From assembly GCA_963930775.1 (NCBI GenBank), contig OZ005689.1:31711235-31775234 (forward strand): 64,000 nt of DNA, written 5' to 3'. The position numbers and the translations under genes are program-made. The first letter of the stretch is position 1; the number at the start of each line of letters is the position of its first letter. Of this stretch, positions 29,650 to 39,028 are shown in pieces. The notes under the pieces were generated by a model. The model worked only from the letters and a program-made list of their open reading frames with translations, was not told the origin of the DNA and made no database searches. This DNA is from Cliona cf. orientalis. Its lineage: Eukaryota > Porifera > Demospongiae > Clionaida > Clionaidae.

Positions 29650-32072
29650 TGAATACAGCAGTTTATGAGTATTAAGCTACTCTCGCGGTATACTTGTGCA
29701 TGCACCGTTACAGCTGGGGATGTCTCAGATGGTCTCTACCGTTATACTGAAGACTTGCTAGCCTTGAAAGCAGCTGCACATTACGAAGTATCACTACCTA
29801 GCAATTGCTGTCATATAACCTCCCCTCTGGAAGCCAGCATCTGGGAACGTCTCCTAGCTACGCACCCAGATAGGCAATATGCCAACTTCATCGTCAATGG
29901 CATCCAGAGGGGCTTCCGCATCGGTTGCAGTGCAAATAGGTCTGACCTCCGTTCAGCCACACGGAATATGTTAGCAGCCTATAACAATTCCAGTGTTGTT
30001 AATAAGTATTTGAAGGAAGAGTTGGAGTACAGTCGCCTTGTGAAAGTTCAGCCACCGTTGGCAAGTCTCGTCCACGTTTCTAAGCTGGGGGTTATTCCTA
30101 AAAAGCACCAGCCAGGAAAATGGCGGTTATTAGTGGATCTGTTGTCACCCAAAGGAGCAAGTATCAATGATTTTATCAGCACTGAGTTTTGCTCTCTTTC
30201 GTACAAATAGGTGGATGATGCAGCAGCCTATGTCTTTGAAGCAGGGCGGGGCACACTGCTAGCAAAGCTCGATATAAAGTAGGCATACTGCAATGTGCCC
30301 GTGCATCCCAGTGATCGTCACCTACTGGGGATTCAGTGGCAGGGGGAAACATTTGTGGACACCTGTCTACCATTTGGTTTTCGATCAGCCCCGAAGCTGT
30401 TTAACGCAGTGGCTGATGCCCTGGAGTGGGTAATGGTCAATGAAGGCGGCGCTCAGGTTGAGTTTGTCATCCACTACTTGGACAACTTCTTGTTCGGTGG
30501 ACGTCCTGGCTCAGAATCTTGCAGCAGGGCCTTGGACCATGGTCTACGTCTATGTCGGACAGTCGGCTTCCCGGTCATGCAAGAAAAAGTTCTCGGGCCG
30601 GCTACGGTGCTAGATTTCCTGGGTTTCATTATGGATACAGTATCTATGGAAATCAGATTACCTGCCGAGAAACTGTCTTGCATTAGGCAGACGATTCTTT
30701 CCTGGAGAACGAAGAAGAGTTGTACAAAGCGTCATCTTCTCTCACTTATTGGCAATTTGCAGCATGTTAGCTTGGTGGTAAAACCAGGGCGTACCTTCCT
30801 GCGCCATATGATTGATCTCTCGAAACGACAAGTCCATATGGATGGTCACTTACGGCTTAATGCGGAATTCCGAGCAGATATTCAATGGTGGGCAACATTT
30901 GTGACCGTCTACGGGAAAACCCGGCATATGGGATCCGCGTGCTATTCGCGCAATGCGCGTTTTTAGTAGCTCAGGTAGAAATTTGTCAAAGTCCAGATTT
31001 TGTCATATAACATGTCGAACAACTCTTCTTCTAACTGTTGCTGTCGTCTACGGAGGCCAGTCGATCTATACAAAGGCGAAATAAGCCTTCATCTTGGCCC
31101 ACCTAGTCGGCCCAGCTGCCGTACCCGGAGTCCGTTGCTATGGGCGGTAATTAGAATTCTCTACCTAGATACAGCTAGATTCATCGAACTACTGTACGTT
31201 CGCTCACCTTTTTAGCTTCTTGGGCATCTAAGAATAATCGGCTGTCGTTGTCAACAACGAAATTCAACTCTTGCTCCATCTTCACGTTCATTTCGAACGG
31301 CTCCGCCCAGGTCCATTTAATTGATTTCCGGGTCACGCGTAGTATGCGGAAATGCCATACGCATGCATAGCAACGCCTTTGGACCGTAATTTCTCGATTA
31401 TTGAGGGTGTGGCGCGATCGCAAACAAAGCGCTGTATCTCCACAACGAAGCGCATGATCGGTCTAGAACTTGAACGCGAGGTAGCTCTATGGTAGAGCTT
31501 ATCATAGATGCATCAAACTCAACTTCCACAAAAATCCCATATGGCAGGTTTTCCCATAGACGGTCACATTTCTTGACGCATGGAACGGTGTATCTGTGAT
31601 TTCAACTCTCTGCAGACGCCCCATTGATGCCAGACTGGTCTCTGACGCCTCTGGTTCCTGGGGATGTGGAGCCTATCTTGGTAATAAGTGGTTTGCCCTT
31701 CCTTGGTCCTCTTGCCCATCTTGGGCAGAGGTGCACATTAGTGTGCAAGAGCTACTGCCAATTGTCGTCTCGTGCGCCATATGGGGGAGCGACATGACCG
31801 GCCGTCATATCTGATGTTTGTGCGACAATGCAGCGGTGGTTGTTATGATAAACAAGCACACAAGCAAGCATCCGACTGCAATGCACCTGCTCAGATATCT
31901 CTTCTTCATATGCGCACGATCTAACATCACCTTATCTGCGGAGCACATAGCAGGTGTCACGAACGAAGCAGCTGATGCCCTATCCAGGAACAATTTGTCG
32001 GCTTTCTTCCAAAAAGTTCCTGCTGCCCATGAAGCCCCCTCAGTAATACCGCTGGCTCAACGTCCTAACTGA
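29650..32072 (+). pseudogene. Ngaro-like reverse transcriptase and RNase H, broken
   Basis: An acceptor-like GAATACAG precedes the frame. RT blocks: VSKLGVIPKKHQPGKWRLLV, LLAKLDIK, NVPVHPSDRHLLG, LPFGFRSAPKLFNA, and the catalytic box reading HYLDNFL. That last motif has Asn where the second catalytic Asp is expected. In-frame TAG codons at about 30208 and 30280 interrupt it. At 30901 a family-A MITE enters at WWATF. After the MITE, RNase H resumes with SDASGSWGCGAY, QELLP, CDNAAVV and EAADALSRN. A TGA at about 31813 is a further lesion. Confidence 0.85.
30901..31567 (-). repeat. MITE family A inserted in the RT-RNase H gene
   Basis: Ends GTGACCGTCTACGGGAAAAC and, at the right, GTTTTCCCATAGACGGTCAC. 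Both flanks are ATTT (30897-30900 and 31568-31571), a 4-bp duplication. Removing the MITE and one ATTT restores continuous coding from WWATF into the segment preceding RNase H. The core runs opposite to the copy split by the host element. Length 667 bp. Confidence 0.92.
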
Positions 32073-32195
32073 TTGTCAGCGGAGTGGTCCAGTGCTTTCT
32101 GGGCCTGCATTTAGATTTTGGATACGTAACTAATGTCAGGCACTAGCATCATGAATGTTCCTGTATCGGTCTATGTTGTATAACTTAATAATGTT
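32073..32195. other. RNase H to recombinase junction
   Basis: Short non-coding stretch ending in TATGTTTTTAG just before the recombinase frame, which looks like a 3' splice site. Confidence 0.4.
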
Positions 32196-33118
32196 ATGTT
32201 TTTAGCCATTGCCAATCATTGTGCTCAATTTGCATTACCAGCAAACGTCTCTGCAGAGTGGGAGCAATACCAAGCAAGTGCAGAGGAATACTTTACAAAG
32301 GGGTTAGCGAAGTCCACACTGAAATCATATCAGTCTGGCATCAGGAGGTACACAGGATTCTGTATGAGGCTCAATCGCCCAGTTCTCCCGATATCAGAGG
32401 ACACCCTGGCTGCGTTCTTAGCCTCTCTGGCCAAAGAGGGCGTGTCCTACGCTTCACTGAAAGTTTACCTAGCTGCAATACGGCATTACCAGATCAAGAA
32501 TGGTCAGGGGGACCCTGGTATCTCACGGATGGTGCGCTTAGACTACATCATGAAGGGGATAAGGAGAGATGGTGCCCTCAAGTCTAATCCCAGGAAGGAA
32601 CGCCAGCCGATTACTCCGGCACTCCTCAGTCGGCTGTTCTCAGTGTGGGAGAGGCGAGCAAACATAGGAAACTCCAAAATGCTATGGGCTGCTTCATGCC
32701 TGGCATTTTTTTGCCTTTCTGCGAGTTGGGGAGTTCACAACCCCGGGGGTCACTCAGTTCGAGGAGAAGATCCACCTTTCTGTATCTGATATCTCGGTGG
32801 ATCGTCTTGATACCCCGACAATGGTGTTCATTACTCTGAAGCAGTCAAAGACGGATCAGTTGAGGAAAGGCATCACAATTGTTCTGGGTCGGACAAATAA
32901 GACTCCATTATGCCCAGTATCCGCACTACTGAGCTACTTGGTGGTGAGGGGTATGGTCCCAGGTCCCCTCTTTGTGTGGAGCGATGGTCAGTTCCTGACG
33001 AGAGCTCACTTTGTGAGGGAAGTCAAGCAAGCGTTGGAGCTCGCGGGAGCAGATGCATCCGACTTCAATGGACACAGCTTCCGGATTGGAGCAGCGTCCA
33101 CAGCAGCAGCTAATGGTA
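32196..33118 (+). pseudogene. Ngaro-like tyrosine recombinase, N-terminal and most of catalytic part
   Basis: KSTLKSYQSGIRRYTGFCMR (core-binding region), then the catalytic domain: Arg in FLRVGEFTTPG, Lys in LKQSKTDQ, and HxxR in GHSFRIGAAS. A frame change in a T-run near 32709 precedes the Arg box. The frame ends at AANG, exactly where the 5.9-kb transposon entered, between the HxxR box and the catalytic Tyr. The Tyr-bearing end is at 39020-39141. Confidence 0.88.
33110..33118. repeat. Target-site duplication, left copy (CTAATGGTA)
   Basis: CTAATGGTA abuts the left terminus of the 5.9-kb element. It is identical to 39020-39028. Confidence 0.92.
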
Positions 33119-33200
33119 TAGCCTCGTGCCCAGGCTCTCGGGAGGGGGGAGGGGGAAAGAGAGCCTGGTACAGACCGTTCGCGCATGCGCTTAATTTACC
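33119..33200 (+). repeat. Left terminal inverted repeat
   Basis: Starts TAGCCTCGTGCCCAGG, contains a G-rich GGGAGGGGGGAGGGGG tract, and ends around CGCATGCGCTTAATTTA. It is complementary to 38940-39019. Confidence 0.93.
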
Positions 33201-33380
33201 AACATTCCGGTAAATTTGTATATCACTGGAGATACTTTCCGTATATGTAAGTCCTGTGACGTCATCCTTATCGCAGGATATATTGCGCATTGCACCACAA
33301 ATCGAACGCGCGTAAGGCTGATCGCGCATATTAGTTCGCATGTGAGATCGTGCGAGTGTCAACAAGGCAAGTTCCTGGTC

Positions 33381-35150
33381 ATGGCTACCGATCGAGGACT
33401 GATCCCTGGAAATGCTACAGCTGACAAAATCGATTTTGAAGAGGCCCTGTCTTTTGCCCTATGTCAGTTAGAGAACAAAGACTTCACTCTTAAAGCCCAG
33501 CAAAAAGAGGCTGTGAAGCACGTGTGGGATGGCAAGGACGTGTTCGTGCTCCTACCAACTGGCTTTGGCAAATCTATTATCTATGAAGTGTTACCTTTCT
33601 TGTTTGATCACAAGCTGGGAAGAGTGCACGGGCAAACTAAAAGCTTAGTGATAATCGCGTCACCACTTGTATCCTTGATGGCAGATCAAGTCTCAAGTCT
33701 TCGTCACAGAGGAGTGGAGGCAGCAATTATGTCCTCAAAGTGTGCCAGTGCGATGAATTTTCTTGCCACCGAGAGAGATTTCTACACATGCAGCTTTCTA
33801 TTTGGATCTCCAGAGGCACTTATCAGTTCGAAGTGGAGAGAACACATTGATACACCAACAGTAGCTGACAGAATTGTAGCTGTAGTCATTGATGAAGCCC
33901 ACTGTGTGTCCAAAATTAATGGTAAGAACTATAAAAATTCTGTTTCAATATTATGATACACTACTGTACACAAGGTGAAATTTTTTATGGGTGTGTGTGT
34001 GTGCGTCTTTGCGTGTGCCAGTGCTTGTATATGAGAGCTCGTATCTCTTCCCAGGATTTCTATGTTACAGGCGGGTAAGACGCTACCTGTGAATTTGTAT
34101 ACCCTGTAGATGGAGGCGCTAGGGTCGATTCCCAGCGGCTGTCCTGGTTACTTTCTCTTTCTGCTAGCTTACTACTGTATATGGGGTGAAAGATCTGTGG
34201 TGCTCTAGTACAGCTCGGCTGCTATCAACACAATATGAATACTAAGACCCTATACATGTTAGGCTAAGTCTGAACTATAATAATTATCGTAATTACATTT
34301 CCCTGCTCTTCATTTTTTTAATAGGAGCAAAGAATTTCATTCAGAATATGGCCGACTACATGAGCTAAGGGCACTGGTTCCTCATGGCACACCTTACGTG
34401 GCATGCACTGCTACTGCTACACGTTCTATCAAGGAAGAGGTAATTTCCAATCTGGAAATGCATGCTTGTGCAACAGTAATGACATCACCTGATCGAGCAA
34501 ATATCTACTATGAGGTACTTTCACGAACTGAAATCAGTAAGGATTTGCAGTTCTTGATTGAACAACTGAATAAAAGGAGAAACAAAGCCCCACGAGCAAT
34601 TGTGTACTGTCGCACCCTAAATAATTGTGCTGATTTGTATGCCTACTTCCATTCTGAGCTTGGCGATAAATCGTACTTAGCCCAAAAGATTAGTGATAAT
34701 CGGATATTTGGGATGTTCCATTCCTGTACACCACAGCATAACAAAGACGTTATTTTAAAAAGTCTAACTCAAAGTGATGGCCTTGTTCGTGTTGTTTTTA
34801 CTACCGTGGCTTTAGGCATGGGGGTCAATATTAAAGAAGTTAACTTAGTAGTTCACTATGGTGCTCCGCATAGCATCGATGATTACTTCCAGCAAAGTGG
34901 AAGAAGTGGTCGTAGTGGTGATAATGCACGTTCTGTTGTTTTCTGGAAGCCTTCAGATTGTCCAGTTAAGAAAGAGCCCAAGTGCCTTCATGATAGAGAA
35001 GTTATTGATGTTCGGAAATACTTGGAGAATACCACAGTCTGCCGTCGAAAGTGGTTGCTTGACTTTTTTGCTCCTGGTTGTGCTACACCAGGTGATGACA
35101 AACTGTTATGTTGTGATATATGTGCAAATTCAATTAATATTGATACATGA
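33381..35150 (+). pseudogene. RecQ-family DNA helicase carried by the transposon
   Basis: A superfamily 2 ATP-dependent helicase. Exon 1 (33381-33921) starts at MATDRG and holds LKAQQKEAVKHV (motif 0), LLPTGFGKS (Walker A), ASPLVSLMADQV (Ia) and VIDEAHCVS (DEAH box). An intron of about 400 bp (GTAAGA at 33922 to TTTAATAG at 34324) separates exon 2. Exon 2 has one extra base near 34338-34345 between AKNF and HSEYGRLHELR. It then has ACTATATRSIK (III), AIVYCRTLNNC (IV), VVFTTVALGMGVN (V), QQSGRSGRSG (VI) and a Cys-rich RecQ zinc region CRRKWLLDFF...CCDIC. There is no HRDC or obvious nuclease fusion. Apart from the single-base shift, every motif is intact, so decay is recent. Probable role: remodelling or unwinding element DNA during transposition, by inference. 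Confidence 0.88.
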
Positions 35151-35190
35151 ATGTAATAATAATAGTAGTGTTATGTAAGCATAAATTTCC

Positions 35191-38100
35191 CTAGTCTTCA
35201 TCAGAATCAGTGTCAGATCCACTTGAGTCTTCCTCTAATGAGCCTTTGAACTTAAGGTAGTCTTGCTTTTTCTTGTCTATCCATTGTTCACACTTGATTT
35301 TACTCCAGCTTTTAAGGGGATTCAAATTCATTTTTGGAAATGTGTGTTGCCTTTTCTTGTCTGATACTGAAAGTAGATAATTACAGTAGATACTACCGTG
35401 CTGACATCCTTTGCGTCACTGTATGTGGAATGCTTCCCACCTTCAATAGGAAGGTCACTGGTTTTGTCAAATTGTTCACGTAAGCGCTGAAGAGTGCTAA
35501 CAGAGCGGGCTGACCTTTACAGAGCTTCTTTTGTTAGGTTAGGCCCCATGTTTACTATTATTTGTTTGATAAGCTTATTTACATGCTCATATAAATCACA
35601 TGGTATGTTCCTGCCTAAACCTCCCCTTGTATTAATGTACCTATGCCACATTATTTCTTGAGCAAGTTGTGGGGAAAGAACACATTTCACCTGAAATTGT
35701 AGGCACAAAGCTTGTAGAGAGTATTTAGTGCGTCCTGATGCATGAAAGTGGGGCAGGAAGAGTCGCCAGCATCGAAATGATCGCTTTCCATCTGCATGCT
35801 CCCATGTATCTAGGTATTCCATTATCAAGGCCCCATAGTGGCACAGTGTTCGGGCATAGTTGTATTTGTGATCATCTGTAGTCGTAACTACTTCACCAGT
35901 GATTGCCTTGTCTATTAAGGTACATCTTCCTACTACCTGGGAGGCTAGATTCCTAATATACTGGCTTTTATCGCTCTCCTGACCATGCATGCTTAACATT
36001 GCACTAGCGTATCCAGGGAGGGTGCTCAGGGTGCTCGAGCACCCCCCTTAGGCTCAGAGGCATACAATTAATTAGTGCTGACATGCCTTAGTTTACATCA
36101 ATAAATAATGTTACTAGCATTTTGCTAGATAAAACTCTCTATTAAAGCTTCAAAATCGCTAGCTAGTTCATTAGTAGCTGCTCACCTGAATGGTTTTCAT
36201 AGTTTTTGAGCGGTGAAGGGTGAAAAGCATGGACGATTCTTAATAATGCACACCCAATAACGGGCGAAAATGGTGGGTGTGGTCAACAAAAGTGGGCGTG
36301 GCTTCCAAATTTTCGCGCGCAGATCGTCAAGCACCCTCCTTTATGAAATCCTGGATACGCCACTGCATTGGATGGCAGATTCACCTTAGAATCAAGCTTT
36401 GTGATGCCCAATATTTCACACGCCACTGCAAGTAAGTGACCCTTAACGACTGTGAGAAAGAAGTCCAGTGTGGCATTCACATCTTTTTTCACATCTACGT
36501 TTACAGTGGTATGATTAAGCTTACACCGGAAAAATCCAAGTGTGCCATGGTCACTGGCTGATGATGATTGCTTGTATAATTGTTTCCAAATGACCTATTG
36601 TGCATGTGTACAGTGGATAAAAATGTGTGTGTACATGTATACATGTACATGTATGTATCGTGTGTGTGTGTGTGCATGCATAATATTACATTGGCTATAT
36701 TATGCTGATTCATCAGGCCACACGATTAGGGCTCTCTAATTAGAAACACAATATCATTGTAATTGTCTACTTACTCCCAGCATGCACACTAGACAGTGCC
36801 AATCTTCCACTTGAGGTTCTAGAAGTTCCAGCCTCTCTACTGGATCCATCATATGCCTCTGTGCACCCAATTGACGCTCGCAAGTCTGATGATCCCCTCC
36901 TGATGCCACCCGATGCTCACTGGGATAACTTTCTCCCAGATACTCTTGCATGGTCTTCATAATGTCAACCATGTCACTGCTGCAGTTTTCATTTTTCATC
37001 AGCACATCCAGAACTACAACTTCGGATTTTTTGGACATTTCAGCTGAATATTCATGCATGATATGCTTTGGAACTACTTTAGATAGGGGTTGAAGCTCCT
37101 TAATATACTGTGTTAATACTCTACTGACCAAATTATTTTTTACACATTGTATATCTTCTGCAGAAGGCAAAAACAAGGAACTACTCATGGACCTTAGACT
37201 GCCCACAGAGCCGGTTCTGGAAAGTGCTTCAGCTTGTGTTTGCGTGCGGCTTCTCCCTACTAGGATGCTGTACATATGAAGCATTTCACCTTGATGGTCT
37301 GAACGAACATCTCGAACTTTCCGTTTGTGATCTACATTATCACCCCAGAATTTGAATATGACACCATCGGCTATCCACTGCTGTAACGGAGATGCATGAT
37401 GCTGACTTATTTCCTTAATAAGAGTGAGTGTTGCATTATAGCTGACACACACCTTCAAGTGATTAAGCCGAGTATACACCTGTATTGTGCTTGTAGTAAG
37501 TGTATGTGTATAATTATAATATTATATAGTTGTACTATACCTGCTTATTGACATGTGTAGCAAACATTGTAAGGGATACCAGCGACTGTATTCCATTCAT
37601 CTCTCTATTGCGCTCTTTCAGGATCACTGCAGCTGCCATTGAAATTCCTGGATTGTGTGCATTGCCTGCTTTCTTGTTACGGTGATCGCTGTGAGATGCA
37701 ACTGTGGACAGCACTCGGAAAAAAGTGGGAGCCCTTTCTTTCAGATCCTCTACAATAACATTCCAGGTGAAATTATCATACATGCTTGATGGTATCTTCC
37801 TTCCTAAATAGTGATGGCTGGGGCTTGAGTTGGCATAGTTTGCTACATTCTGCATTAACTTCGTCTAGAAAGTGTAAAAATACCAACTCATGCAGCTCAT
37901 TGTGTTGATACAATACTCTTTGCTAGTGATGGAAGATGACCACCTGCAAGGGCTCTCCCTATTTTCCCTTCATTATTAGCTAGTACTGTCTTCCATGGGA
38001 CTGAACGACTAGGAGTTGATACACACACCTAGTTTGGGGAAGGGAGTGGGTAGGAGATGCTATTAACAATTAAAATTAATGGTTTAATGCCTTACTGTGA

Positions 38101-38763
38101 CTTCCTTTAACACACCCGAGGAGGATTTAGTCTCCATATTTCCTGATTTGGCCACATTACCTTCCAAAAAAGATATTATTGTTGGCTACACTACTACTGT
38201 GATTGAATATTTTTGTTGAATATTTACCACATTCATGCAGGGGGAGAGGATCTTCAACAATCAGCGGAGCTTGAACTGGAATAGTACAGTCTAGTTGCGA
38301 TTTGACAGTACTGGTTGAATTTTCATCTACTATTAAATTTTAAGAGTTATTGCTTTTAATAATAATTATTAATTCTTGTCAGCTTACTGTTGAATTCCAA
38401 TCTTTTTGCTGTCAATCGTTTCAAGGGTGGTCTGGCTCTTACTATATCTGGTGAAACACCAATAGCTGTGCTACATTCCTTTTTACGTTTCAATTCACCT
38501 CTGACACTAAATGCATGGAAAGACTCTTGTGCCATCTTTCGAAATGCAGTCAGATTTTCTGATGCTTTCTCCAATGTCAAGAACTGCCTCTTGCACTTGC
38601 TACAGATAAGATGAGGCAATCCATCAGTCGAATCCACTTGTATCCCTATCAAATTTTCTAGTCGAGAACTTAAGTTATTCTGGAGTGCCCATGGGCTAAA
38701 TAAAGAGCAGTAGTGTGTTGGTGAAACCGTAGATCTGCACAAACGACAAACTTGACCAGCCAT
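35191..38763 (-). pseudogene. ZAD-like zinc finger plus DUF6589-like protein, candidate transposase
   Basis: Multi-exon, converging on the helicase. Exon 1 (38763-38388, start MAGQVCRLC) has a ZAD-like module CRLC...CSKC and ends at a GTAAGC donor. Later exons: near 38320-38220; 37855-37535 (FTWNVIVEDLKERAPTFFRV, GISMAAAVILKERNREMN); 37479-36754 (WIADGVIFKFWGDNVD, HMYSILVGRSR, SGGDHQTCERQLGAQRHM); 36555-36370 (DVNATLDFFLTVVKGHLLAV); and 35999-35517 (INTRGGLGRNIPCDLYEHVN). It ends in an acidic tail at 35191. The blocks match what I know of DUF6589 proteins, a family found mainly in transposon-rich fungal and invertebrate genomes. Conserved Asp residues such as the one in FWGDNVD may be catalytic, by inference. 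An inserted MITE (36002-36365) and a frame mismatch across it inactivate this copy. Confidence 0.75.
36002..36365. repeat. 364-bp MITE with CATTG duplication, inside the DUF6589-like exon
   Basis: The left end is CACTAGCGTATCCAGGGAGG and the right end CCTGGATACGCCACTG, inverted and imperfect. It is flanked by CATTG on both sides (35997-36001 and 36366-36370). CAGTGGCGTATCCAGG-like ends are common in hAT-type MITEs; a 5-bp duplication would fit the hAT5 group. The coding halves on its two sides are otherwise contiguous. Confidence 0.85.
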
Positions 38764-38939
38764 ATTAACCACGGAATAAACGATGGTCATACACGTGGCT
38801 TCGCTTTCGCGCAATTTGCCATTCGCGAGCGCAATCTTAATATTCATGATAATGGGCGTGTCCAGTTCCATTTACGTATATTCGCGTAAGACCATATCAC
38901 GCGTTTGGTGTATGACATCACAAGCCACAAAAGTTTGAA

Positions 38940-39019
38940 TAAATTAGGCGCATGCGCGAACGGTCTGTACCAGGCTCTCTTTCCCCCTCCCCCATCCCGA
39001 GAGCCTGGGCACGAGTCTA
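38940..39019 (-). repeat. Right terminal inverted repeat
   Basis: Inverse of 33119-33200. It ends CCCGAGAGCCTGGGCACGAG followed by TCTA. Differences from the left copy are at the fourth base and within the G/C-rich tract. Confidence 0.93.
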
Positions 39020-39028
39020 CTAATGGTA
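39020..39028. repeat. Target-site duplication, right copy (CTAATGGTA)
   Basis: Identical to 33110-33118. Confidence 0.92.

Follow-up and report, generated by a model that had tools for sequence, protein, structure and literature searches.

A probable AcademH-type transposon of the sponge Cliona cf. orientalis carries a RecQ-like helicase and a ZAD-headed DUF6589 gene

We analyzed 64,000 nucleotides of the demosponge Cliona cf. orientalis (GenBank assembly GCA_963930775.1, contig OZ005689.1, positions 31,711,235 to 31,775,234 of the forward strand; hereafter the window) and found a complete transposon at window positions 33119-39019 (5901 bp) that encodes a RecQ-like helicase and a protein joining a ZAD head to a DUF6589 domain. 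It is highly likely to be a cut-and-paste DNA transposon of the AcademH type, one of a diverse group in this genome, with the DUF6589 protein as its putative DDE transposase. We make this assignment because the element shows the two published marks of AcademH, a helicase gene and a target-site duplication (TSD) of 9 or 10 bp; the likeness is to that published description. The type of element is already known.

In a local alignment, the inverted ends are identical at 77 of 80 bp, and the 23-bp tip of the end occurs twice in the window, both times at an end of the element (0.00 occurrences expected by chance). An exact 9-bp TSD, CTAATGGTA, adjoins each end (Table 1). When the flanks were joined around a single copy of the target, the resulting 200 bases matched two genomic places along their full length (97%) and others along most of it (79-86%); longer flanks continued unbroken at the two best insert-free places, with 93-95% identity. 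The genome thus contains related insert-free sites, and the insertion took place in one of several copies of a repeat. This repeat looks like a DIRS-like retroelement, a name that we infer; its integrase N-terminal domains exceed their Pfam cut-offs, and its reverse transcriptase match reaches 26.7 bits, below the cut-off of 29.6. The putative retroelement covers 29653-33118 and resumes from 39029, with repeated stretches in the right flank. Rfam gave no match anywhere in the window. An original prediction from the letters of the window had proposed a complete transposon with inverted ends and identical 9-bp flanks. The flanks are as it stated, the alignment of the ends extends to 80 bp, and completeness is borne out by the ends, the TSD, the insert-free sites and the gene pair.

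Searching the sponge's own genome (217 Mb) with the left end of the element, a check that the prediction had proposed for both ends, revealed further copies, with at least 41 left-end matches; only the best candidates were scored, and genome-wide counts are therefore lower bounds. Among 20 stretches fetched around these matches, six had one end only and were left out of measurement. The prediction had also asked whether the TSD is always 9 bp. Among 14 elements with both ends measurable (including that of the window), nine had a perfect 9-bp TSD and four a perfect 10-bp one (in L022 and L026, once each end was moved by five bases); L025, the sole exception, had none. Element sizes were 506, 623, 625 and 874 bp, 3.9 kb (L026, without a ZAD match), 5.2-6.6 kb and, in one case, 11.2 kb. 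L016, L017, L020 and L027, of 506-874 bp, are short non-autonomous derivatives whose ends are the same and whose TSDs are 9 or 10 bp long.

Copies did not systematically lack either gene, an outcome that favors the prediction over its own refuting condition. With DUF6589 loci counted genome-wide by protein match to transposase exon 5, 30 of 33 ZAD-exon loci had a same-strand exon-5 match, 28 had a convergent helicase and 27 had both. Each of the 24 helicase matches of at least 220 bits lay within 7 kb of an opposite-strand exon-5 match, and 23 of them lay within 9 kb of a ZAD locus. An exon-5 match lay near 51/80 helicase matches of 50-220 bits and 2/15 of those below 50 bits, and a ZAD locus lay near 6/80 and 0/15, respectively. 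Helicase and exon-5 pairs were tested for opposite strand, and convergence was tested for ZAD loci only. The tally entered 34/34 ZAD-exon, 27/27 zf-AD, 87/107 exon-5 and 119/137 helicase matches; the 20 exon-5 matches and 17 of the 18 helicase matches left out were second pieces of places already kept, and the 18th (C17:4589608, 42.3 bits) was a separate weak piece.

The closest complete copy, L010, differs from the window copy by 68 substitutions over 5497 aligned bases (1.24%) and is apparently intact, with both genes reading through. Judged against it, both genes are broken in the window copy, and the earlier view that this copy is only lightly decayed does not hold. In the helicase, exon 1 ends in a frame change (relative to both L010 and L009), and the transposase has two frame changes in exon 4, a stop and a miniature inverted-repeat transposable element (MITE) in exon 6, and a further frame change near its C terminus. 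The MITE has the ends CACTAGCGTATCCAGG and CAGTGGCGTATCCAGG with CATTG flanks on both sides, and its look is, we presume, hAT-like.

In L010, the transposase gene has six exons and encodes 930 residues, with splice sites picked by eye. Its product contains zf-AD at residues 5-66 and a full-length DUF6589 at residues 441-848; in the window copy, DUF6589 is matched in two pieces, both exceeding the Pfam cut-off of 27 bits (Table 1). A structure model of DUF6589 (mean predicted local distance difference test score 87.6) predicts an RNase H-like core into which a helical stretch is inserted. Foldseek alone returned no match to this model below E 1.1. The best-ranked solved structures were the DDE transposases Hermes, P element and RAG1, at modest Z, with 6-8% identity in the structural alignments to the hAT (Hermes) and P element transposases. 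Because DDE transposases rank best, the DUF6589 protein is very probably the transposase, with a predicted DDE-like fold. A DDD/E-type transposase is a feature of the Academ superfamily. Academ is counted among the DDE/D superfamilies (PMC10294476). General Pfam scans of the window and of the L010 protein gave no match to profiles named KDZ or MULE, and the viral contigs searched held no relatives of transposase exon 5 or helicase exon 2. Both a convergent multi-exon DUF6589 gene with a ZAD-like head and the role of DUF6589 as transposase had been put forward by the original prediction; Pfam matches confirm the former and the predicted fold supports the latter.

The ZAD head was detected by zf-AD at 30.4 bits in the window copy and 28.4 bits in L010 (Pfam cut-off 28), over the cut-off in 5/5 other heads scanned from the same genome, and under it (26.1 bits) in the public protein P0003. 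The spacing between the two C-x2-C pairs was 44 in 8/8 own-genome heads aligned; L015, which carries a stop, was left out of this alignment. A single ZAD sequence found no ZAD in PDB, but a nine-row profile matched ZFP276 (E 1.2e-5) and Grauzone (E 2.7e-5), as well as the chains LD30467p (8.4e-5) and LD15650p (9.9e-5), which we take to be fly ZAD proteins. With the Pfam cut-off passed and solved ZADs matched, the predicted ZAD-like head is real and common to the group. A conserved basic motif (KRxK ... GVSP ... R) directly follows the ZAD in exon 1 of L010, L014, L021, L022, L023 and L025 and in P0003.

ZAD heads characterize the largest family of insect transcription factors. The window protein shares the domain with ZAD-C2H2 transcription factors such as fly Grauzone and vertebrate ZFP276, in which C2H2 fingers follow the ZAD, whereas here DUF6589 takes their place: in the 930-residue L010 protein, Pfam matched only zf-AD and DUF6589, and no C2H2 array. 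Zfp276 has been described as the only vertebrate ZAD gene (PMC8887482).

Four loci fetched among the middle-scoring helicases (L029-L032) show that this genome also harbors a second AcademH-like group, which is more diverged. All four have inverted ends beginning with TAGTCT and 9- or 10-bp TSDs (for L031, once each end is shifted by one base), and all four match both helicase and DUF6589 (Pfam was run on part of them). The heads of L029, L030 and L032 contain two CxxC pairs, and that of L031 equals that of L030 in the aligned stretch. Pfam found no zf-AD in the three second-group heads scanned; when profiles of the second-group heads and the ZAD heads were compared, the probability was 13.8% (E 0.002). 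A GVSP-KRP stretch is present also in L029.

These heads bear on where the ZAD came from. It may well be that the transposon group captured its ZAD from a host ZAD gene and was not the source of host ZADs, a tentative explanation that falls just short of probable; that the head of the second group is not recognized as a ZAD is consistent with such a capture. Against it, 26 of the 27 zf-AD matches in the genome (25 over the cut-off) adjoin a helicase or DUF6589 exon of the window element's group, and the remaining one (C4:7184806) ties in score with two that lie beside group exons (C9:7391229 and C2:14118920). This search read the genome frame by frame and exon by exon and could miss a ZAD split by an intron. 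The same search found no zf-AD in 14 control genomes, none of which has a known ZAD gene; its power to detect a host ZAD gene is therefore unproved, and one could be missed. The opposite direction, in which the ZAD originated in early animals as the dimerization domain of an AcademH transposase and its domestication came later, when it was fused to C2H2 fingers, is on balance unlikely.

The helicase gene has two exons on the plus strand and faces the transposase gene on the minus strand. In the window copy, DEAD and Helicase_C exceed their Pfam cut-offs (Table 1), RecQ_Zn_bind reaches 20.4 bits against a cut-off of 25, and by eye we could assign what we take to be motifs I to VI. The spliced L010 helicase scores 243.9 bits with NCBIfam recQ_fam (cut-off 219.8). 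Based on its superfamily 2 core and RecQ zinc region, the protein can be placed in the RecQ helicase family, as originally predicted. It is improbable that this gene is a passenger caught by the transposon without a part in transposition. The short derivatives that lack a helicase keep the same ends and TSDs, as a passenger would allow, although they could be mobilized in trans; against this, a DUF6589 exon accompanies every strong helicase match, both genes are present in all four loci fetched from the distant group, and many helicase matches contain no internal stop.

Some helicase matches lie apart from this pairing. The 29 of 80 RecQ-like matches of 50-220 bits without a DUF6589 exon-5 match nearby could be decayed copies, copies whose exons have diverged too far or another helicase-bearing element. 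Many matches below 50 bits have long open frames, and several are mutually copy-like. Four of the weak matches (C1:12449635, C1:17166117, C1:7359070 and C4:9368413; 43-46 bits) have near-equal identity and query range, with open frames of 395-1310 residues, and perhaps represent another multi-copy family of helicases, with no relation to the window element.

Within the Academ superfamily, AcademH is described as carrying a helicase with 9- or 10-bp TSDs and AcademX a nuclease with 3- or 4-bp TSDs, TSD length being linked to the encoded enzyme (PMC10045372). The window element and its relatives have the helicase, DUF6589 and TSDs of 9 or 10 bp, unlike AcademX, and the original reading as AcademH-like is supported. 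Passages citing the AcademH description (Kojima 2020) likewise give a helicase, 9- or 10-bp TSDs and occurrence in animals, and mention no ZAD head on the transposase, which the window element has. The predicted interrupted RNase H-like core resembles that of the hAT (Hermes) and P element transposases. hAT and P elements differ from the window element in having 8-bp TSDs and no known helicase gene. We consider it very improbable that these DUF6589/ZAD transposons form a separate superfamily whose AcademH-like helicase and TSD arose by convergence only; the comparison with a description instead of reference sequences leaves room for this, but the two features jointly mark AcademH and are shared by two divergent groups. 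Two host genes flanked by chance inverted repeats are effectively ruled out by the TSDs, the insert-free sites and the many copies.

The literature searched, which did not include the founding AcademH paper, contained no description of a ZAD head on an Academ-type transposase. No publication found there combined Academ with ZAD terminology, and those pairing ZAD with transposase did not concern such a protein, judging by titles and the openings of abstracts. DUF6589 was not mentioned there, with PF20231 or 'Academ transposase' appearing only in unrelated context.

Table 1 Features of the transposon and its immediate flanks (window coordinates).
Feature	Position	Strand	Evidence or remark
Left TSD, CTAATGGTA	33110..33118	.	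Exact repeat of 39020-39028
Left terminal inverted repeat, starts TAGCCT	33119..33198	+	77/80 against right end; other copies
RecQ-like helicase exon 1	33381..33921	+	DEAD 63.9 bits; tblastn with L010 protein; splice site by eye
RecQ-like helicase exon 2, zinc-region cysteines at end	34325..35150	+	Helicase_C 62.7 bits; tblastn with L010 protein
Transposase exon 6, C-terminal half of DUF6589, NEH motif; stop and MITE in window copy	35191..36594	-	DUF6589 55.3 bits
364-bp MITE in transposase exon 6	36002..36365	.	Lacking in L010 and L009
Transposase exon 5, N-terminal half of DUF6589, GDN and GGD motifs	36775..37479	-	DUF6589 40.4 bits
Transposase exon 4, two frame changes in window copy	37541..38028	-	Alignment and tblastn against L010
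Transposase exon 3, linker	38096..38160	-	Homology to L010, by eye; least sure splice choice
Transposase exon 2, linker	38228..38329	-	Homology to L010 gene model, mapped by eye
Transposase exon 1, zf-AD (ZAD) head and basic GVSP motif	38388..38763	-	zf-AD over cut-off; alignments
Right terminal inverted repeat	38940..39019	-	End alignment, tip pattern
Right TSD, CTAATGGTA	39020..39028	.	Exact repeat of left TSD

Elsewhere in the genome, a cathepsin-like exon (C12:3671655-3671825) has serine in place of the active-site cysteine (context QGQCGASYAF), whereas cysteine is kept in the other seven stretches read. We take this serine to mark silicatein, which demosponges possess, and the exon by itself would make the host a probable demosponge. 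A tandem cluster of cathepsin-L-like exons lies at C19:4508728-4580694, with the usual cysteine in the six read.

Starting from the observed ends, duplications, insert-free related sites, gene pair and domain homology, together with the predicted fold, we infer the following course of transposition. The N-terminal ZAD, a domain described as mediating protein interactions, most likely dimerizes the transposase and so helps the two ends to meet. Acting through a D-D-E triad, the DDE core would cut at the TAG tips and join the cut ends to the target strands at positions spaced by 9 or 10 bp. For the RecQ-type helicase, whose gene faces that of the transposase in most loci, the probable task is to open or clear DNA, either at the ends or at gaps; at least one apparently intact AcademH-type copy, L010, is suited to asking what part the helicase plays.

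That a sponge transposase carries a ZAD offers a lead on the origin of this domain, in either direction. A parallel case is THAP, which has been compared with the P-element transposase (PMC9810180). The ZAD-headed transposase described here makes the origin of ZAD regulators testable.
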